NCBI GenBank assembly: GCA_961205875.1
Contig: OY540821.1
Coordinates: forward strand, 2,914,001 to 2,978,000
DNA: 64,000 nt
Direction of reading: 5' to 3'
From: Sialis fuliginosa
Taxonomy: Eukaryota > Arthropoda > Insecta > Megaloptera > Sialidae
Positions 3,425 to 31,860 of the stretch are shown here, one piece after another. Below the pieces are notes generated by a model. The model worked only from the letters and a program-made list of their open reading frames with translations, made no database searches and was not told the DNA's origin. Every line of letters begins with the position of its first letter. The first letter of the stretch is position 1. A program made the translations under genes and the position numbers.

Positions 3425-4286
3425 CCGGGTGGTCTATTTAAACTGAGACAAGTAAATATTTAAAAAACCAAGAATTTTTAGAAAAAAAGTTTGGTACAAA
3501 AGTTTCAGGGTTAGGAGGGGGAAAACTAATGAATGTAAAAAATTTGAACTTGAGTGTATGTTTTAAGGTCATTTTGAGGTCAAATTCATTTTTTTAAATG
3601 GAAATATATATATTTTTTTACATATTCGTATTCTACAACAAAAAGGAAATAACTTTTGTCTAAAAAGTTTTTTTTTTAAATCCCAATTTTAATTTAAAAA
3701 AAAATTTTTTTTGTTAAAGATATCTGAAATTAATCTTCTAGAAAAAATGAAACTAAAAATAATGGAAATTTAATGTTTTATTAATGTAAATAATAAATAT
3801 TCGAAGTGATAACCATCAACTTCAATACATTTTTCAACATGATAATAATTAGATATTTCAAAATAATTCGAAAGCCTAGCCAAACTGGAAAACTGAAAGC
3901 CTTTCCAAATAAATTGTTGTTATGGAAACTTGAATGATGTAAAATATCAAAACTTTTTGGATCAAGCGCTATATGAACTACATAAGCTAACTGATGAAGA
4001 AAAAAGAAGAATGTGGTTTCAACAGGAAGGTTTTCGAAAAAACTTTTTAGACAAAAGTTATTTCCTTTTTCATTGTAGAATACGAATATGCAAAAATATG
4101 TATATATTTCCATTTAAAAAAATGAAGTTGACCTCAAAATGACCTTAAAACATACACTCAAGTTCAATTTTTTTACATTCATTAGTTTTCCCCCTCCTAA
4201 CCCTGCATCTTTTGTACCAAACATTTTCTCTGAAATTCTTTAGTTTTCGAAATATTTACTTGTCTCAATTTAAATAGACCACCCGG
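3425..4286. mobile_element. Fold-back TIR element, TA-flanked
   Basis: An 862-bp element with ends CCGGGTGGTC/GACCACCCGG next to TA on both sides. Inverted arms of roughly 280 bp are well conserved, for example GTTAGGAGGGGGAAAACTAA near 3510 against its complement near 4185. TA flanks point to the Tc1/mariner type but no transposase is present. Open frames inside the arms are products of the repeat. Confidence 0.75.
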
Positions 4287-16471: not shown

Positions 16472-17562
16472 AGGGTTCCGAAGTACGTACTACGTGAAAT
16501 GTTTGGAACCACTTACAGGTGTTTAAGTTAATGTTTAAATATAAAAAAGTGTCAAGTTCTACTAATTGAGATCTATATTTTGACATACCACATGCTTAGA
16601 TATCAAAAAAAAAAATTTTATGACGCCCCTCCCTATAATTCCAAAATTTAAAATTATATTGTTGACTTTAGTATTTGTCGTTAGTAGTCCCACCAAAGCC
16701 TCGTTACCAAATTTTTTTCAGATTTTTTGAGCCAGTAGTTACAGAGATAGAGTAGGGGGGGACAAAATAAAACACTGCTTTTAGCCTCCTACAGGTGCCA
16801 TTTTTGAGTTAGAAAAAAAATAAAAAATATAGTCATGTTCTACGAATTGAGATGTACATTTTGACATATCACATGCCTAGATATGAAAATAAAAATTTTT
16901 AATTCTCTTACACCCCTCCCTATTATTCCAAAATTTAAAATTATATTGTTGACTTTAGTATTTGTCGTTGGTAGTCCCACCAAAACCTCGTTACCAAATT
17001 TTTTTCAGATTTTTTGAGCCGGTAGTTACAGAGTTAGAGGGGGGGGGGACAAAATAAAATACTGCTTTTAGCCCCCTACAGGCGTCATTTTTGAGTTAGA
17101 AAAAAAATAAAAAATAGGGGCATATTCTACTAATTGAGACGTAAATTTTGACGTGCCACACGTCTTGGTATACAATTTTTTTGTTTTTTTGGATTTGCTT
17201 TAAAGCCCCCTACAGGCACCATTTTTGATTTAGAAAAAAAATAAAAAAAGGGTCAAATTCCGCTTGTTGGGTTATACATTTTAACGTGCCACATGCCTTG
17301 GTATAAAAAAAATATTTTTTTTACCTAGCTTTAGCTCCTTATTGCCCCCCCTGAAAAATTATTTATTCAATAAATTTGTACATATTTTACTAGAGGGTGT
17401 CATTTTACATGTTCAGTAAAAATTTCAAGTTTCTAGCTTATATAGTTTACGAGCTATTTAGCTTTGAGTGAAAAGGACGGACGGACGGACGGACGGACGG
17501 ACGGACGGACGGACATACGGACGGACGACAAAGCGATATTAATAGGGTTTCTTCGGAACCCT
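16472..17562. mobile_element. TIR element with (ACGG)n, array copy 1
   Basis: Ends AGGGTTCCGAAG/CTTCGGAACCCT are perfect 12-bp inverted repeats. Inside are four internal subrepeats (two of ~300 bp, two shorter) that share TTTTGAC(A/G)T..CACATGC-like text. An (ACGG)n run lies at about 17475-17525, close to the right end. Elements with this kind of end and a GTCC/ACGG microsatellite are widespread in insects, notably Lepidoptera. No coding sequence. Confidence 0.75.
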
Positions 17563-17872
17563 AATAAAAACGAGTGTCATTTTTGAAATATTTTTTTGCC
17601 AACGATTCTAGTTGAAAAAATAGCTACTCATAGTATCGTGAATATCTCCTAGAAATTTCACAATAATCGGACTAACCGTTTAGAGATACAAGTGCAAGGG
17701 TAAATAAATTTAAAAAATATATTTTTTTAAATAGCTAAAAATAATTTCTCTAACATAAGTTAAGTAAACTTAAATTGGAAATGGAAAAGAGAAATTATAA
17801 TTTAGAAAATTAGGACATTTTGATTTTTATTTATTAAAAATTCGGGCAAGACATACACGAGTGTATGCCATA

Positions 17873-18964
17873 AGGGTTCCGAAGTACGTACTACGTGAAA
17901 TGTTTGGAACCACTTACAGGTGTTTAAGTTAATGTTTAAATATAAAAAAGTGTCAAGTTCTACTAATTGAGATCTATATTTTGACATACCACATGCTTAG
18001 ATATCAAAAAAAAAAATTTTATGACGCCCCTCCCTATAATTCCAAAATTTAAAATTATATTGTTGACTTTAGTATTTGTCGTTAGTAGTCCCACCAAAGC
18101 CTCGTTACCAAATTTTTTTCAGATTTTTTGAGCCAGTAGTTACAGAGATAGAGTAGGGGGGGACAAAATAAAACACTGCTTTTAGCCTCCTACAGGTGCC
18201 ATTTTTGAGTTAGAAAAAAAATAAAAAATATAGTCATGTTCTACGAATTGAGATGTACATTTTGACATATCACATGCCTAGATATGAAAATAAAAATTTT
18301 TAATTCTCTTACACCCCTCCCTATTATTCCAAAATTTAAAATTATATTGTTGACTTTAGTATTTGTCGTTGGTAGTCCCACCAAAACCTCGTTACCAAAT
18401 TTTTTTCAGATTTTTTGAGCCGGTAGTTACAGAGTTAGAGGGGGGGGGGGACAAAATAAAATACTGCTTTTAGCCCCCTACAGGCGTCATTTTTGAGTTA
18501 GAAAAAAAATAAAAAATAGGGGCATATTCTACTAATTGAGACGTAAATTTTGACGTGCCACACGTCTTGGTATACAATTTTTTTGTTTTTTTGGATTTGC
18601 TTTAAAGCCCCCTACAGGCACCATTTTTGATTTAGAAAAAAAATAAAAAAAGGGTCAAATTCCGCTTGTTGGGTTATACATTTTAACGTGCCACATGCCT
18701 TGGTATAAAAAAAATATTTTTTTTACCTAGCTTTAGCTCCTTATTGCCCCCCCTGAAAAATTATTTATTCAATAAATTTGTACATATTTTACTAGAGGGT
18801 GTCATTTTACATGTTCAGTAAAAATTTCAAGTTTCTAGCTTATATAGTTTACGAGCTATTTAGCTTTGAGTGAAAAGGACGGACGGACGGACGGACGGAC
18901 GGACGGACGGACGGACATACGGACGGACGACAAAGCGATATTAATAGGGTTTCTTCGGAACCCT
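17873..18964. mobile_element. TIR element with (ACGG)n, array copy 2
   Basis: Same ends and order as copy 1, nearly identical to it. The G-run before ACAAAATAAAATACTGC is slightly longer. Confidence 0.75.
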
Positions 18965-19274
18965 AATAAAAACGAGTGTCATTTTTGAAATATTTTTTTG
19001 CCAACGATTCTAGTTGAAAAAATAGCTACTCATAGTATCGTGAATATCTCCTAGAAATTTCACAATAATCGGACTAACCGTTTAGAGATACAAGTGCAAG
19101 GGTAAATAAATTTAAAAAATATATTTTTTTAAATAGCTAAAAATAATTTCTCTAACATAAGTTAAGTAAACTTAAATTGGAAATGGAAAAGAGAAATTAT
19201 AATTTAGAAAATTAGGACATTTTGATTTTTATTTATTAAAAATTCGGGCAAGACATACACGAGTGTATGCCATA

Positions 19275-20362
19275 AGGGTTCCGAAGTACGTACTACGTGA
19301 AATGTTTGGAACCACTTACAGGTGTTTAAGTTAATGTTTAAATATAAAAAAGTGTCAAGTTCTACTAATTGAGATCTATATTTTGACATACCACATGCTT
19401 AGATATCAAAAAAAAAAAATTTATGACGCCCCTCCCTATAATTCCAAAATTTAAAATTATATTGTTGACTTTAGTATTTGTCGTTGGTAGTCCCACCAAA
19501 GCCTCGTTACCAAATTTTTTTCAGATTTTTTGAGCCAGTAGTTACAGAGATAGAGTAGGGGGGGACAAAATAAAACACTGCTTTTAGCCTCCTACAGGTG
19601 CCATTTTTGAGTTAGAAAAAAAATAAAAAATATGGTCATGTTCTACGAATTGAGATGTACATTTTGACATATCTCATGCCTAGATATGAAAATAAAATTT
19701 TTAAATTCTCTTACACCCCTCCCTATTATTCCAAAATTTAAAATTATATTGTTGACTTTAGTATTTGTCGTTGGTAGTCCCACCAAAACCTCGTTACCAA
19801 ATTTTTTTCAGATTTTTTGAGCCGGTAGTTACAGAGTTAGAGGGGGGGGGGGACAAAATAAAATACTGCTTTTAGCCCCCTACAGGCGTCATTTTTGAGT
19901 TAGAAAAAAAATAAAAAATAGGGGCATATTCTACTAATTGAGACGTAAATTTTGACGTGCCACACGTCTTGGTATACAATTTTTTTGTTTTTTTGGATTT
20001 GCTTTAAAGCCCCCTACAGGCACCATTTTTGATTTAGAAAAAAAATAAAAAAAGGGTCAAATTCCGCTTGTTGGGTTATACATTTTAACGTGCCACATGC
20101 CTTGGTATAAAAAAAATATTTTTTTTACCTAGCTTTAGCTCCTTATTGCCCCCCCTGAAAAATTATTTATTCAATAAATTTGTACATATTTTACTAGAGG
20201 GTGTCATTTTACATGTTCAGTAAAAATTTCAAGTTTCTAGCTTATATAGTTTACGAGCTATTTAGCTTTGAGTGAAAAGGACGGACGGACGGACGGACGG
20301 ACGGACGGACGGACATACGGACGGACGACAAAGCGATATTAATAGGGTTTCTTCGGAACCCT
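19275..20362. mobile_element. TIR element with (ACGG)n, array copy 3
   Basis: Same ends and order as copies 1 and 2, with a few substitutions (for example GTTGGTAGTCCC in the first subrepeat, where copies 1 and 2 have GTTAGTAGTCCC). Confidence 0.75.
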
Positions 20363-20672
20363 AATAAAAACGAGTGTCATTTTTGAAATATTTTTTTGCC
20401 AACGATTCTAGTTGAAAAAATAGCTACTCATAGTATCGTGAATATCTCCTAGAAATTTCACAATAATCGGACTAACCGTTTAGAGATACAAGTGCAAGGG
20501 TAAATAAATTTAAAAAATATATTTTTTTAAATAGCTAAAAATAATTTCTCTAACATAAGTTAAGTAAACTTAAATTGGAAATGGAAAAGAGAAATTATAA
20601 TTTAGAAAATTAGGACATTTTGATTTTTATTTATTAAAAATTCGGGCAAGACATACACGAGTGTATGCCATA

Positions 20673-21759
20673 AGGGTTCCGAAGTACGTACTACGTGAAA
20701 TGTTTGGAACCACTTACAGGTGCATTTTTAAGTTAAAGTTAAAATATAAAAAAGTGTCAAGTTCTACTGATTGAGATCTATATTCGGACATACCACATGC
20801 CTAGATATCAAAAAAAAAAAATTTATGACGCCCCTCCCTATAATTCCAAAATTTAAAATTATATTGTTGACTTTAGTATTTGTCGTTGGTAGTCCCACCA
20901 AAGCCTCGTTACCAAATTTTTTTCAGATTTTTTGAGCCAGTAGTTACAGAGATAGAGGGGGGGGGGGACAAAATAAAACACTGCTTTTAGCCCCCTACAG
21001 GTGCCATTTTTGAGTTAGAAAAAAAAAAAAATATGGTCATGTTCTACGAATTGAGATGTACATTTTGACATATCACATGCCTAGATATGAAAATAAAAAT
21101 TTTAAATTCTCTTACACCCCTCCCTACTATTCCAAAATTTAAAATTATATTATTGACTTTAGTATTTGTCGTTGGTAGTCCCACCAAAACCTCGTTACCA
21201 AATTTTTTTCAGATTTTTTGAGCAGGTAGTTACAGAGTTAGAGGGGGGGGGGACAAAATAAAATACTGCTTTTAGCCCCCTACAGGCGCCATTTTTGAGT
21301 TAGAAAAAAAATAAAAAATAGGGGCATATTCTACTAATTGAGACATAAATTTTGACGTGCCACACGTCTTGGTATACAATTTTTTTGTTTTTTTGGATTT
21401 GCTTTAAAGCCCCCTACAGGCACCATTTTTGATTTAGAAAAAAAATAAAAAAAGGGTCAAATTCCGCTTGTTTGGTTATACATTTTAACGTGCCACATGC
21501 CTTGGTATAAAAAAAAATATTTTTTTTACCTAGCTTTAGCTCCTTATTGCCCCCCCTGAAAAATTATTTATTCAATAAATTTATACTTATTTTACTAGAG
21601 GGTGTCATTTTACATGTTCAGTAAAAATTTCAAGTTTCTAGCTTATATAGTTTACGAGCTATTTAGCTTTGAGTGAAAAGGACGGACGGACGGACGGACG
21701 GACGGACGGACATACGGACGGACGACAAAGCGATATTAATAGGGTTTCTTCGGAACCCT
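20673..21759. mobile_element. TIR element with (ACGG)n, array copy 4 (most diverged)
   Basis: Same ends. It differs from copies 1-3 near its start (TGCATTTTTAAGTTAAAG) and has a shorter (ACGG)n run. It is followed directly by resumed K-repeat sequence, so it marks one edge of the array. Confidence 0.75.
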
Positions 21760-27175: not shown

Positions 27176-27364
27176 GAGTCTGTATCTCAAGATATTAAAG
27201 TTTCTAGTTTCCATTTTTTTGAACGGGTAATCGTATTTGACTTTTATTGCCGAATTTGAAATCAGCATGTTAAAATCAAAAAAGTATTAGAGACCCTCAA
27301 AACATGTAATTCCATTAAAATTTCGAGTTCTTATTAATTAAGTAAAAAATTATGTAAAAAATTA

Positions 27365-27859
27365 TGCAGGTGTTGTTATCAGATAAGAATATTGAAACAA
27401 TATCTTGACGAGCACCAGTTGATGGCTTACTATTACGCACATGTGTACTCTGCAATGAGGTATGGTATCCTTCTGTGGGGAAGTACTTCAGAGGCTGGAA
27501 GAGTGTTTGTTATACAGAAAAAAAATTTAAGACTAATTTTTAATTATGATAAAAAAAAATCACTTAGAGGTATTTTTAAAACTAACAATTTATTAACTAT
27601 TTATGGTATATATGCAACAGAATTATTAAAAAATATTAAAAGCAAAAAAGAAGAAAGGAAAATTGCAAATTATGACTTTAGAGGTAGAATTCAAGAGATA
27701 TACCATAAAACTACCTTTTATGAAAGATCTCCAGATTATATGTATAACAAACTTATAAACACTCTTCCTGGCATATTAAAAACCTCAAAAACATACAAAA
27801 TACATTTAAAGCAGTACTTCATAATGAAGAAACCATACAGCATTGCTGAGTGCTATTAG
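27365..27859 (+). pseudogene. Reverse transcriptase C-terminal part, 5'-truncated Jockey-type LINE
   Basis: An open frame of 164 codons with no ATG of its own at the left edge; it starts abruptly in coding text and ends in TAG. Residue patterns fit the region just after the RT domain of Jockey/CR1-type LINE proteins: IRILKQYL, YYYAHVYSAMRYGILLWGS, then QKKNLRLIFN, a basic/SLRGIF block and LLTIYGIYATELL. This region has no separate catalytic role. The palm motifs and the apurinic-type endonuclease that would lie upstream are absent, as expected for 5' truncation during target-primed reverse transcription. The frame has no internal stop, so the insertion need not be old. The clade is inferred from the YGI..WGS and QKK..R motifs. 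Confidence 0.85.
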
Positions 27860-28009
27860 CTTAATTATTTTATATTGCAGTAAAAAAAAAATTATATATT
27901 ATGTATATATTTTTATTTATTTATGTATATTGTATACCACATATTGACGTTTTGTATACCTAACCAATGGTCGAACATAACAAATAAAATTTATTATTAT
28001 TATTATTAT
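27860..28009 (+). mobile_element. 3' UTR and (TTA)n tail of the truncated LINE
   Basis: A short 3' UTR follows the stop and leads through CATAACAAATAAAATTTA (includes AATAAA) into TTA repeats at 27991-28009. Ending in a simple repeat instead of poly(A) occurs in some LINE lineages. The TTA tail resumes at 31802, beyond the inserted Dong-like element. Confidence 0.75.
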
Positions 28010-28143
28010 GTATGGATAAAATCCTTAAAAACCTTGTGCCACGCAAACCACTAACAAACTTTAGGTTTGACACCGCCATCACTGTCAGAGATTTGCACAG
28101 CTGGATGTTACCATAGCCACGTCTTGAACCACAAGATAGGTGA

Positions 28144-31100
28144 CTACAGAGTTTTGGGGTCATGCGCACGGAGTACTCGGAGTGATCCAAGAAGCACTGC
28201 CTTCTGCATTCGATATGCCAATGTTTCAGCATTATGCTGACACGCAGGGATGCTTCTGAGAGCAGAGACCAGCGACGATTTAGCTCCTCCAAGGACACCA
28301 ATAATTATGACGACAAGAGAGACAGTATATCCTGGGTACAGTTGTCTCAGCTCAAATATGAGATCTTGATATTTGGTACGTTTCTCGACTTCCTTTACAG
28401 CTATGTTCGTTTCAGCAGGAGCCGAGAACTCGATGACAAACATAGACTGCTTTGAATAGTCAAGTAGAACGATGTCAGGCTTTGTAGCAGTGAGTTGTCT
28501 AGAGGTAGGAAAGGCATAGTTCCAAAAGATCTTACATCTATCGTTCTCGACAACAGACTCTATGTCCCCAGGAGCGTACGGCAAAACGGGGGATTCGTCT
28601 ATTCGATAAGCGTGTCTAAGATGGTAGTAAAGGACACGTAAAGCTGCGTTGTGTCTATGGATATACGCGCAGGAGGCATAAAACTTACATGCAGACAGAA
28701 GATGCATCAATGTCTCCGGGTAAGAATGACATGCTCTGCAAGTAGTAGCTGCGGTTTCTGAATCCATAATCATACGACGATAGACAAGTGTGTTTATGAC
28801 GCCGTCTTGACATGCCAACACAAATCCCTCGGTTTCAGATTTCAGTCCGGCTGATCTGAGGAAGGCAAACGTCAGATCTTTCGATAAGTTGCATGTTTCG
28901 ATATTTCTATAGAACACACCATGTAAAGGCTTATCGACATGCTGCTTTAGCAAGGTATCATGCTCGGCTTTCTTTATTTTAGTTTTTACTTGATCTGACG
29001 TTAGTAGTATGATAGAATTGTCTCTACGCCTTCCAGTTGGACTTGGGTCAAATTCTAAACCGAGTTCGTTTGCCGCTCTCTGTGCTGCCGAATAGAGAAA
29101 TGCTCCTGTGTTTGCTGACTCGTGTGTATGCACAAGTTTCAAGAGGGGATCTGAGCTATTCAAAACTTGATGGGCTGTACTAAGAACTATTCTGTTGTGT
29201 AAATACTCCAGACTTAGTAGACCTCTCCCACCCGACGAACGTGGAAGGTACAAACGCACAACGGAAGATTTGGGGTGAAGACTTCGGTTTATTGTCATTA
29301 TTTTTCTGGTCCCTCTATCCAGATTTTTTAATTCGTTTATAGTCCACTTAATTGCCCCAAACGTATAAAGCAGGATCGGGACAGCAAGCATGTTTGTGGC
29401 TAAGACTTTATTTTTTCCCGACAGTTGAGAACTCCAAATTTGTCGCAGAGATTGCCGGTACTTACTGCGAAGAGCCTCTTTTACAGTGTTCACATCCTGA
29501 ACATGTCTCTCACCCACGCCCAGATAAGTGTAAGACTCTTCGGCATCAAGGTGATGAATGATGCTTCCGTCAACGAGTTGCATGTCTTCTCCGAAGTCTT
29601 TGTTTCTTCCTTTTTGTAGATGGATTACTGCGCATTTGTCTAATCCGAATTCCATTCCGATATCACGGCTGTATGATTGCACAGTGTTGAGCGCAAGCTT
29701 AAGATCATTTGCGCCAGACGCATAGATCTTAAGGTCATCCATATAAAACAAATGGGTGACTTTGTGCTTCCGATTTGAAGGTTCGCCGCACATGTATCCT
29801 CGAGAACGTCTCAACAAAAAGGAAAGGGGCAGTAGTGAAATACAAAAAAGGAGGGGACTCAAGCTGTCACCTTGAAATACCCCGCGAAGGTATGTTACCG
29901 TCTCTGTTGCCACTACACGCTTCTCAGATGTTATGATGAAGCGTGTTTTCCAGAGAGGCAGCAGATTTTCAACGCATTTCACTATATCAGGGTTGATTTT
30001 TAAGCATTTCAAGAGACTATTTAGTAGCTCATGCGATGTTGTATCGAATGCCTTTCTATAATCGACCCAGGCCATTGACAAGTTGCGCTTGTACTGTACT
30101 GCATCTTGGCAGATGCATCTGTCTACAAGTAAGTTTTCTTTGCATCCTGCCACTCCTCGTTTCGAACCCCGTTGTTCGTACACCTCCTTCCATATAGGGT
30201 CGATTTGTTTAAGGATACGTTCGTTCAGAATGGAAGTGAACGCCTTGTAAACTGTGTTGAGACATGTTATCGGTCGGTAGTTCCTCGGATTCGAGAGATC
30301 TCCTTTTTTGGGGATGAGGACGGTTCGCCCTTCAGTGAGCCAGGATGGAATCGGCTCTACGTTGGTGGTAAAAGTAGTGAATATTCGCGCTAGATGCTTA
30401 TGGGTGGCCGAGAACTTTTTCCACCAAAAGTTATTAATGGCATCTATTCCAGGGGCTGAAAAATTTTTCTTTCCCACGAATGAATTTTTCACTATTTCTT
30501 CGGTAACTATAGGGACTACATCATCTTCTATTAAAACTGCATCACACTGTTTTTTGAACAGTACTAGTGCTGGAGTATTCATATTTACTGGTATCTTCTG
30601 TTCGTAAATACCTTTCCAGAATGTTTCAATCTCTAGTGCAGCTGGTGGAGCATTTTCAGTTGGCGTATTTTGTTTGAAAAGACGAGATGGGCTAATGGAA
30701 AAGGTGTTATTCTCCTTTATGCGACGTATACGCTTTTCTAACTTTTTTCTGGCACTAGTTAGTGCCCTTATTCGGTCTAAGCTACGCTGTTTGATGACCT
30801 GTAGAGTATTTTTGTTCAGTGTGTGATGTTCGGCCTTCAGAGCAAGCGCAATACGCTTAATCTTAGACGTGAATGCACGCCCAGACGTTTGATAGTCTAT
30901 CACACACTGGATCCTAGACACTAGTTGCCTTTCTGTTTTTGTCTTTTTGTTGAGTTTCTGTATACGCAATTCCGATTTGTCTTCCTTTCTTTTGTGAGGG
31001 ACTGATGTAGTCAAAACTTTCGCTGCAGCATATACAGCACAATTCACCGTCCAGAGATCGCAATCTTCCGAAAGGTATTTGTCGAGAACTTGATTCATAC

Positions 31101-31485
31101 AATCTAGTTGTTCAACACGCAAAACTATTTTTTGGTGAATAGATCTCTTTCGTTCTTTGATGTCGTCTTTAGTATTTATAGTTGAGTAGAACCGCGAGTT
31201 CAAATCTGTTTCAGCTGGTATTATAGGTGCGATTTGGGTCACTGTGGGAACATTAAGTGACTTAGCTGTAACTGGGACTTGCGGTTCGGAGTTAAATCCT
31301 CTTCGTCGTAGGTGGTTAACATAGTCTCGCAGGTTTTGTTGCGAGAGGTCCGTGTATTCTGGGTGCATCTCGCACCACAATGAATGCATCCGGGCCATGT
31401 ATCCTCTACACGAAGGGTCACTGGATGCGTGACATGCAAGTAGGTCACGTCTCAGTTCATCCGTCCACTCCATGCGGATGACCAT
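28144..31485 (-). CDS. R4/Dong-type reverse transcriptase with restriction-like endonuclease
   Basis: This 1113-residue protein would nick the (TAA)n target and copy its own RNA onto it (target-primed reverse transcription). Residues 7-62 (WTDELRRDLLACHASSDPS, LWCEMHPEYTDLSQQNLRDY) fit the Myb-like N-terminal DNA-binding region of R4 elements. A basic linker follows (about 105-270). The RT domain is about 380-660: GRTVLIPKKGD with NYRPITCLN near 387-409, motif A AWVDYRKAFD (472-481), motif B GVFQGDSLSPLLF (535-547) and motif C YMDD (581-584). A C-terminal zinc knuckle is C916-x2-C919-x8-H928-x4-C933. The restriction-like nuclease follows, with KPD at 1002-1004 and E1019. Length is usual for R4-clade single-ORF proteins. 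No internal stop or frameshift. The frame is open for about 33 more codons upstream without an ATG, so a non-AUG start is possible. Several small antisense frames are shadows. Confidence 0.93.
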   Translation of the reverse strand: MVIRMEWTDELRRDLLACHASSDPSCRGYMARMHSLWCEMHPEYTDLSQQNLRDYVNHLRRRGFNSEPQVPVTAKSLNVPTVTQIAPIIPAETDLNSRFYSTINTKDDIKERKRSIHQKIVLRVEQLDCMNQVLDKYLSEDCDLWTVNCAVYAAAKVLTTSVPHKRKEDKSELRIQKLNKKTKTERQLVSRIQCVIDYQTSGRAFTSKIKRIALALKAEHHTLNKNTLQVIKQRSLDRIRALTSARKKLEKRIRRIKENNTFSISPSRLFKQNTPTENAPPAALEIETFWKGIYEQKIPVNMNTPALVLFKKQCDAVLIEDDVVPIVTEEIVKNSFVGKKNFSAPGIDAINNFWWKKFSATHKHLARIFTTFTTNVEPIPSWLTEGRTVLIPKKGDLSNPRNYRPITCLNTVYKAFTSILNERILKQIDPIWKEVYEQRGSKRGVAGCKENLLVDRCICQDAVQYKRNLSMAWVDYRKAFDTTSHELLNSLLKCLKINPDIVKCVENLLPLWKTRFIITSEKRVVATETVTYLRGVFQGDSLSPLLFCISLLPLSFLLRRSRGYMCGEPSNRKHKVTHLFYMDDLKIYASGANDLKLALNTVQSYSRDIGMEFGLDKCAVIHLQKGRNKDFGEDMQLVDGSIIHHLDAEESYTYLGVGERHVQDVNTVKEALRSKYRQSLRQIWSSQLSGKNKVLATNMLAVPILLYTFGAIKWTINELKNLDRGTRKIMTINRSLHPKSSVVRLYLPRSSGGRGLLSLEYLHNRIVLSTAHQVLNSSDPLLKLVHTHESANTGAFLYSAAQRAANELGLEFDPSPTGRRRDNSIILLTSDQVKTKIKKAEHDTLLKQHVDKPLHGVFYRNIETCNLSKDLTFAFLRSAGLKSETEGFVLACQDGVINTLVYRRMIMDSETAATTCRACHSYPETLMHLLSACKFYASCAYIHRHNAALRVLYYHLRHAYRIDESPVLPYAPGDIESVVENDRCKIFWNYAFPTSRQLTATKPDIVLLDYSKQSMFVIEFSAPAETNIAVKEVEKRTKYQDLIFELRQLYPGYTVSLVVIIIGVLGGAKSSLVSALRSIPACQHNAETLAYRMQKAVLLGSLRVLRAHDPKTL

Positions 31486-31800
31486 CCGTTGATTTGTGCC
31501 ACTCCCAACTCCACTAGGGCCTGCATCCGAGACAGGCCGGCTGTGGGTGGCTTTACTTAGATTCTTTTTTGGAACCCAGTGTACCTACTCAAGGGAAGGT
31601 TGGCCCCAAGAGTAGCGGCAGCATTTGTCAGTGCAGAGACTGTTCAGGGCACGCCACGTAACGGCTGCTGATCCGATTTGTGCCTCTAGTTTTGGTCCAC
31701 CCCGGGTATTTTATTTCCCCGGTGCCCGCCATATCTGGTGAGCATTCCCCTATCCGCCACCTGGGGAGGCGCCCGATGGGGGACTAGCAACCCCTCACGG

Positions 31801-31801
<1 letters not shown>
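31486..31801 (-). other. GC-rich, structured 5' leader of the Dong-like element
   Basis: About 316 nt. Read on the minus strand it starts CCCGTGAGGGGTTGCTAGTC. Possible stems are CCCCCATC with GATAGGGG, a GCGCC...GGTGGC hairpin with a C-rich loop, GTGAG with CTCAC about 50 nt later, and CCGGG...CCCGG. RLE-type elements such as R2 carry an HDV-like self-cleaving ribozyme here. The GCC-loop-GGC hairpin is reminiscent of its P3, but I could not assemble the full double pseudoknot. Confidence 0.5.
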
Positions 31802-31833
<32 letters not shown>

Positions 31834-31860
31834 GTTATTATTATTATTATTATAATAATA
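31802..31860. repeat. (TTA)n microsatellite, right side of the Dong insertion
   Basis: About seventeen TTA units with one TTG interruption, then a TAATAATA change of phase. Together with 27991-28009 it formed the target repeat. Confidence 0.9.

Follow-up and report, generated by a model that had tools for sequence, protein, structure and literature searches.

Retrotransposons of the R4/Dong group are long interspersed nuclear elements (LINEs) for which insertion into (TAA)n repeats and a diverged Myb/SANT N terminus have been reported (PMC7998251), and the RNA of the Dong element of Bombyx is reported to cleave itself exactly after the TAA repeats by means of a hepatitis delta virus (HDV)-like ribozyme (PMC3774820). 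It is usual to treat a LINE as a unit whose descent follows that of its reverse transcriptase (RT). Here, we describe a Dong-type element in a 64,000-nt stretch of the genome of the megalopteran insect Sialis fuliginosa (assembly GCA_961205875.1, contig OY540821.1, positions 2,914,001 to 2,978,000, forward strand; hereafter the window, to which all coordinates refer). Our reading of the locus, which we hold to be probable, is that of an R4/Dong-type (TAA)n LINE whose ∼110-nt pseudoknotted RNA head, homologous to the 5′ ends of R1-like LINEs, moved between LINEs with a restriction-like endonuclease (RLE) and LINEs with an apurinic/apyrimidinic endonuclease (APE) and has a role at the 5′ end of the RNA. 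The element is read from its 5′ end at 31801 to its 3′ end at 28010, with the head, termed the module below, at its beginning:

28010 to 31801, minus strand: full-length R4/Dong-type LINE of 3792 nt, its ends fixed against other copies in the genome, with TAA repeats on both sides
31686 to 31801, minus strand: 5′ RNA module common to APE-type R1-like LINEs

The module was overlooked in a preliminary description of the locus and is the most unusual part of the element. When the genome (392 Mb in 20 contigs; loci found there are numbered L0xx) was searched with the element, places were returned at which the match is confined to the first ∼116 nt of the element, a segment with 62% GC; each of these places is the 5′ end of another LINE. 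They fall into the families AC (L021, L022, L023, and L025), TEL1 (L029, L030, L032, and L033), and TEL2 (L031), together with three decayed carriers (L034, L035, and L036). The Dong module is 87 to 89% identical to that of AC over 109 nt (E = 3.7e-35 for three AC copies and 1.9e-32 for the fourth), 79% identical to that of TEL1, and 75% identical to that of TEL2. In a four-element, plus-strand DNA comparison, the matches to the telomeric families had E values of 9e-19 and 4e-17, and outside the module no part of Dong matched AC, TEL1, or TEL2. Exact matches to a 19-nt core of the module number 13 in the genome; one further place has a single mismatch, and all of them lie within these families. 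Allowing up to three mismatches yielded 37 matches, compared to 21 for a reversed control, and the 23 matches at two or three mismatches are therefore background; for a second marker pattern, background matches at two mismatches were too numerous for it to be of use. Among further R1-type loci, the copy at L060 is truncated, and L061 is uninformative on the module.

The families that share the module differ from Dong in their machinery and in their targets. APE and RVT_1 domains are encoded by AC (L021), TEL1 (L030), and TEL2 (L031), and a first open reading frame (ORF1) with a CCHC knuckle is present in AC and TEL1 (the TEL2 scan covered the ORF2 part only). The AC nuclease matches those of TRAS1 and R1Bm, and the TEL1 nuclease matches that of TRAS1. 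A 3′ motif, TTTTAGTGGGTA, is found in all four R1-like loci inspected and is absent from Dong. AC sits in GCATAA, GACATA, or CA repeats; in L021 and L022, the AC copies read on both sides, an A-tail is present and the flanking repeats on the two sides are of one kind. TEL1 and TEL2 adjoin TTAGG repeats, at most about 7 kb from the ends of their contigs. Downstream of its module, the AC-type copy L025 also has a short ACGGGCGGTGTT-like repeat in a long array, at about 5960 to 7320 of L025.

The proteins tell a different story from the module. A protein tree placed Dong with the R4-like L056 and the R2-like L058, apart from three APE elements, with 100/100 support; its six rows were all taken from this genome in place of outside R4, Dong, or NeSL references, and the order within the APE group is unsettled. 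The Dong and AC proteins match weakly (25.7% over 249 amino acids [aa], E = 4e-7), yet theirs are the closest pair of modules in the alignment (85.0 to 86.7% identity), ahead of Dong and the telomeric families (75.9 to 78.2%). AC and the telomeric families, whose ORF2 proteins are 43 to 53% identical, share only 69.4 to 76.4% in the module. Because the Dong protein belongs with R2- and R4-type elements, exchange of the module between LINE clades is very probable, and we infer strongly, from sequence comparison, that it passed between RLE-type and APE-type LINEs after these clades had separated. Dong is not the outlier in module identities, which disfavors vertical descent together with the proteins. 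Descent of the module from an ancestor of both LINE types nevertheless has to be weighed, and several points count for it and against transfer. With three groups, the module tree is unrooted and compatible with vertical descent; the argument for transfer consists of distances and of the age of the RLE/APE split, which is presumed to be very old. In addition, the other Dong-type lineages examined (L017, L018, the second copy in L010, L056, and L057) are all truncated at the 5′ end, so that an old module in Dong is possible. Given the identities above, and given that the first 18 nt of Bombyx Dong, as they appear in a primer in PMC3774820, bear no likeness by eye to the 5′ end of this element, we consider vertical descent highly unlikely.

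Under transfer between clades, the more likely direction is from an R1-type element to Dong because several R1-type families carry the module, as against one R4-type family. The decayed L034 bears on this direction: it is a relative of AC (70.8% over 264 nt, with an ORF1 match of 56.7% over 60 aa) that combines a Dong-like terminal CCCGTGTGGGG with AC-like sequence downstream. The route may have been, e.g., template switching during reverse transcription, and insertion of Dong into (TAA)n would proceed by target-primed reverse transcription. A second exchange, of 5′ halves, is suggested between the telomeric families: L030 (TEL1) and L031 (TEL2) are 77.6% identical over the first kilobase and only 49% identical in the ORF2 protein, and the TEL2 ORF2 is closer to AC (52.5%) than to TEL1. 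Holding the TEL2 and AC modules together was rejected by the approximately unbiased test (P = 0.006; the group was picked for its protein distances). These observations suggest that LINEs can swap RNA heads.

The module was aligned in eight rows; L022, L023, L030, and L032 were left out because their families were already represented, as were L035 (partial) and the other Dong copies. A fold of 25 pairs in six helices was written by hand after inspection of the alignment, and its main helices are as follows:

31781 to 31788, minus strand: helix a, 5′ strand, GCUAG UCC; two pairs with changes on both sides
31686 to 31698, minus strand: helix a, 3′ strand, GGA and CUAG with unpaired CCAAAA between them, from the eight-row alignment
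31771 to 31774, minus strand: helix b, 5′ strand, with its partner at 31740 to 31743; one pair with changes on both sides, also drawn by RNAalifold
31768 to 31770, minus strand: helix c, 5′ strand, GCC, with its partner GGU at 31699 to 31701; family-specific pair swaps
31746 to 31767, minus strand: helix d, UCCCC/GGGGA, with the conserved 12-nt loop AGGUGGCGGAUA; one pair with changes on both sides, and the 19-mer core with exact matches in the genome
31702 to 31722, minus strand: helix f, CCGGG/CCCGG, with the loop GAAAUAAAAUA; two pairs with changes on both sides

Helix b crosses helix c, and the fold is therefore a pseudoknot. Across the eight rows, 96.0% of 199 cells are paired, and 7 of the 25 pairs show compensatory changes on both sides. 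When the partners were slid by one to three columns, 32.5 to 51.8% of cells were paired and zero or one pair had such changes. The covariation score and the percentage paired each exceeded those of all 500 shuffles, and 17/500 reached seven pairs with changes on both sides; the number of further pair types is not above shuffles (340/500). The clearest change is in helix c, which reads GCC/GGU in Dong and AC and GCG/CGC in the telomeric families. Helices b, d, and f were recovered independently by RNAalifold, a program limited to folds free of pseudoknots, which placed helix a in a shifted register. A covariance model scored the module of the element at 130 bits (the element is among its eight training rows), and no Rfam family matches the module.

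The evidence for the fold has to be set against several observations that weaken it. RNAalifold prefers the second register of helix a, which is broken in two of the eight rows at one pair, compared to two and one of the eight at two outer pairs for the register drawn by hand. The eight rows come from six lineages, two of them decayed, and the covariation thus reflects few independent events. The structure was drawn from the same rows on which it was scored, so that the percentage paired leans toward it. Finally, the 5′ untranslated region as a whole folds no better than shuffles (z = −0.69, with a program that does not draw pseudoknots).

What the module does is less sure than where it came from. 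We suggest that it acts at the 5′ end of the RNA, in processing or translation. These elements lie in tandem repeats and are probably read through from the array, and the module may free or define the 5′ end by self-cleavage, allow cap-independent translation, or both. Self-cleavage is a natural first guess because Bombyx Dong offers a precedent for cleavage directly after TAA repeats (PMC3774820), and the families in which the module lies at the border between repeat and element have tandem-repeat targets of three kinds. It could then be a ribozyme that frees the LINE RNA at this border, either as a strayed HDV-like fold or as a new class. The HDV ribozyme is a nested double pseudoknot with the topology P1-P2-P3-P3′-P1′-P4-P4′-P2′, and helices b, c, d, and f follow the same strand order. 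In TEL1, moreover, full pairing is possible between the upstream TTAGG repeat and 7 nt that overlap the end of helix b, as seen in L029 for CCUAACC and the telomeric GGUUAGG. Such pairing is not general: between the bases upstream of the element and the segment after GGGAAUG, there are 7 bp with the telomere in TEL1, 5 bp in Dong, and no run of at least 5 bp in AC or TEL2. At the same place in L031, pairing with one mismatch was seen by eye, and the script found no run of at least 5 bp.

Other results speak against a ribozyme. The lack of a match to any Rfam ribozyme is a weak point since the R2 element of this same genome, which adjoins 28S, also has none above the threshold. The R2 core CCUCCUCGUGG, as reported in PMC5035012, has no counterpart by eye whose pairing is kept in the telomeric families. 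Helix b starts at nt 28 of the element, and an HDV reading would put the cut between nt 27 and 28, inside the element. This is contradicted by three of the four copies that are not truncated further, in which nt 1 to 27 are kept; the fourth lacks nt 1 to 4 only, and a fifth copy, L011, starts at nt 70. A plain HDV reading therefore fits badly, and we leave the role of the module as an RNA-level function at the 5′ end. A generic scan of the 5′ end for HDV-like folds gave 217 unspecific solutions and nothing decisive. On balance, we hold the ribozyme reading to be tentative.

An equally tentative reading is that the module is no ribozyme but a cap-independent translation element or a shared binding site for a host factor. 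The compensatory changes point to constraint at the RNA level, and the unrelated nucleases and ORF layouts of the two kinds of element would make a host factor the more likely shared partner; a point against this reading is that the ORF begins about 200 nt downstream of the module. By comparison, a DNA-level internal promoter appears unlikely. It has a parallel in Pr77, a 77-nt 5′ sequence common to trypanosomatid LINEs in which one report describes a core promoter element (PMC4748587) and another an HDV-like ribozyme (PMC4035085), but compensatory double changes would not be expected of a signal in duplex DNA. Bolder, and rather doubtful, is the proposal that a compact self-processing RNA head, possibly of a new ribozyme class, circulates among unrelated LINE clades that share only a tandem-repeat habitat, with the target repeat forming part of the fold; the latter is hinted at by the perfect TTAGG pairing in one telomeric family.

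Apart from the module, the element has the layout of the group to which it belongs:

28144 to 31485, minus strand: single ORF of 1113 aa, stop-free, intact in 4/4 full or near-full copies
31486 to 31801, minus strand: 5′ untranslated region, from the TAA array to the ORF
28010 to 28143, minus strand: 3′ untranslated region, from the ORF end to the element end
29515 to 30315, minus strand: reverse transcriptase domain RVT_1, residues 391 to 657 (Pfam, E = 2.1e-24)
28687 to 28740, minus strand: CCHC knuckle, C-x2-C-x8-H-x4-C, residues 916 to 933, by sequence
28366 to 28482, minus strand: restriction-like nuclease motif KPD..E..EKRTKY (general form KPD..E..EKxxKY), residues 1002 to 1040, by sequence
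31300 to 31473, minus strand: N-terminal domain said to be Myb/SANT-like, by eye only

The preliminary description had claimed an uninterrupted frame of 1113 codons with RT motifs, a CCHC knuckle, and a PD...E nuclease, flanked by TTA/TAA repeats, and all of these are borne out. The AFD and YMDD motifs of the RT are visible directly in the translation, and the best relatives of the ORF among solved structures are R2 reverse transcriptases (E values down to 1.7e-30). A Pfam scan of the 1113-aa protein gave nothing but RVT_1 above the cutoff and no APE domain; in the N terminus, it found no Myb/SANT match at E ≤ 1 and no zinc finger. The C-terminal nuclease motif has no profile match and rests on its sequence and on a three-row alignment of the element with L056 and L057, both of them pieces from another R4-like lineage in this genome. 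In this alignment, P1003, D1004, E1034, K1035, K1038, and Y1039 of the nuclease and C916, C919, H928, and C933 of the knuckle are invariant.

Taken by itself, the element adds a new member to the known R4/Dong group. Its RT pairs first with the second R4-like lineage (33 to 42% identity by the measure used) and next with R2, apart from the APE-type LINEs. The single ORF with a central RT, a CCHC knuckle, and a C-terminal restriction-like nuclease is the R4/Dong layout, and the (TAA)n target is that of the Dong subgroup; the target is not 28S, and the N-terminal zinc finger of R2 is missing by Pfam. The R4/Dong identity proposed at the outset is thus supported by the target, the domain layout, and the grouping with the R4-like lineage and then R2, whereas the RT phylogeny against reference elements that had been envisaged was replaced by one built on the genome's own rows. 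No relatives were found in viral and genome contig collections, whether by protein or by DNA pattern. An R2-like frame that is open over 1109 aa and adjoins 28S rRNA sequence lies at L058 and L059 (contig C3, about 36.36 Mb); zinc-finger-like motifs can be seen by eye in the L058 translation. R2-like matches cluster at 36.36 to 36.53 Mb of C3 and at 0.45 to 0.70 Mb of contig C10.

The data support the view that the window element is an intact, recently copied R4/Dong-type LINE, as had been surmised from the sequence. The genome holds four copies of full or nearly full length, each with an intact ORF. Across the 3723 positions that they share, they differ from one another by 2 to 5 nt, and three changes are private to the window copy. 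The remaining Dong copies are truncated at the 5′ end, as expected from target-primed reverse transcription. L017, L018, and the second copy in L010 are relatives with 64 to 78% protein identity, for which the proportion of changed synonymous sites (pS) is 0.70 to 0.81, near saturation, and that of nonsynonymous sites (pN) is 0.14 to 0.21. Because pN is far below pS in these comparisons with diverged relatives, we conclude that selection has acted on the ORF. Decayed pieces show less constraint (pN/pS of 0.69 in L012 and 0.38 in L020), and the ratio to the distant lineage of L056 and L057 is 0.56 to 0.64, with saturation. Several Dong-type copies, among them members of different lineages, are stacked in or beside one TAA array at L009, L010, and L016 with L056.

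The element is bounded by the following:

27991 to 28008, unstranded: (TTA)6 target array on the 3′ side of the element, by repeat count
31802 to 31852, unstranded: (TTA)n target array on the 5′ side of the element, by repeat count
27340 to 28008, plus strand: 3′ end of another, abundant LINE with a (TTA)n tail, from genome search matches

The flanking arrays are three of just four runs of at least four TTA/TAA units in the 64 kb. The genome-wide search for TAA-flanked copies that the preliminary description had proposed was favorable to it: in 13 of 14 copies or pieces ending at or near the 3′ end, a TAA run of at least 10 nt follows. Eleven pieces extend to position 3791 or 3792 of 3792, and behind every one of them lies a TAA run of 10 to 41 nt; as for the three other 3′ pieces, L027 and L012 have a TAA run and L020 does not clearly have one. 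Pieces stopping well short of the 3′ end (L017, L018, L026, L028, L037, L038, the second copy in L010, and the first piece in L016) were left out of this count. The 11 flanks have only short matches in common and therefore represent separate insertions. TTTATT was seen by eye soon after the array in 5/11 flanks printed (the window, L013, L015, L016, and L019), which is only suggestive.

In a search with 27340 to 28008 that returned the best-scoring candidates only, at least 43 of the matches listed (one being the window itself) are 89 to 100% identical to this segment, and at least 34 of these 43 extend into the TTA tail, which starts at 652, as far as position 664 of 669 or further. The left flank being the 3′ end of a LINE with a TTA tail, the insertion sits antisense in the TTA tail of another LINE. 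LINE tails were considered and rejected as a general target of Dong, as this arrangement was seen for the window copy alone. The L013 flank is repetitive, but the repeat starts some 110 nt away from the array, at which no LINE end lies.

The window holds one copy of the element, whose GC content of 42 to 44% compares to about 21 to 34% in its surroundings. The next longest stop-to-stop frame outside it is 173 aa, in agreement with the earlier view that all other elements in the window are dead. About four head-to-tail copies of a ∼1.4-kb unit, each with repeats of 287 and 133 nt and a (GGAC)n run, occupy 16537 to 21724.

If the module did cross the divide between RLE-type and APE-type LINEs, the RNA head of a LINE would be an exchangeable part that matters for life in tandem repeats. 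The families that carry it would provide a natural set of variants for testing the role of the 5′ RNA of LINEs and a marker for further exchanges.

In the open-licence literature, we found no description of a 5′ module common to RLE-type and APE-type LINEs. The module's partners resemble the TRAS/SART and Waldo-type LINEs of the R1 clade in their APE nuclease, their CCHC ORF1 (in AC and TEL1), and their telomeric or CA-type repeat targets; we presume these labels from target and nuclease similarity rather than from a reference tree. With Bombyx Dong and the R4/Dong elements of insects, molluscs, and cnidarians, the window element shares, as far as these are described in the two reports, an RT with a restriction-like nuclease and the (TAA)n target (PMC7998251, PMC3774820). 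A 5′ end directly after TAA is likewise shared, and a Myb/SANT-like N terminus is reported for that group (PMC7998251, PMC3774820). It differs from Bombyx Dong in that its 5′ end is the module common to R1-type LINEs; the first 18 nt of the Bombyx element are different by eye. Like R2 and other LINEs with HDV-like ribozymes, it places a structured 5′ RNA beside its target (PMC3774820), with the same strand order of four helices, but no HDV core is recognized, an additional helix encloses the fold, and a 12-nt loop stands in place of L3. The closest parallel to the sharing itself is Pr77 of the trypanosomatid L1Tc/ingi elements, which is likewise reported as a short 5′ sequence common to several LINE families (PMC4035085). 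Pr77 is found within one clade, whereas the module described here crosses RLE-type and APE-type LINEs.

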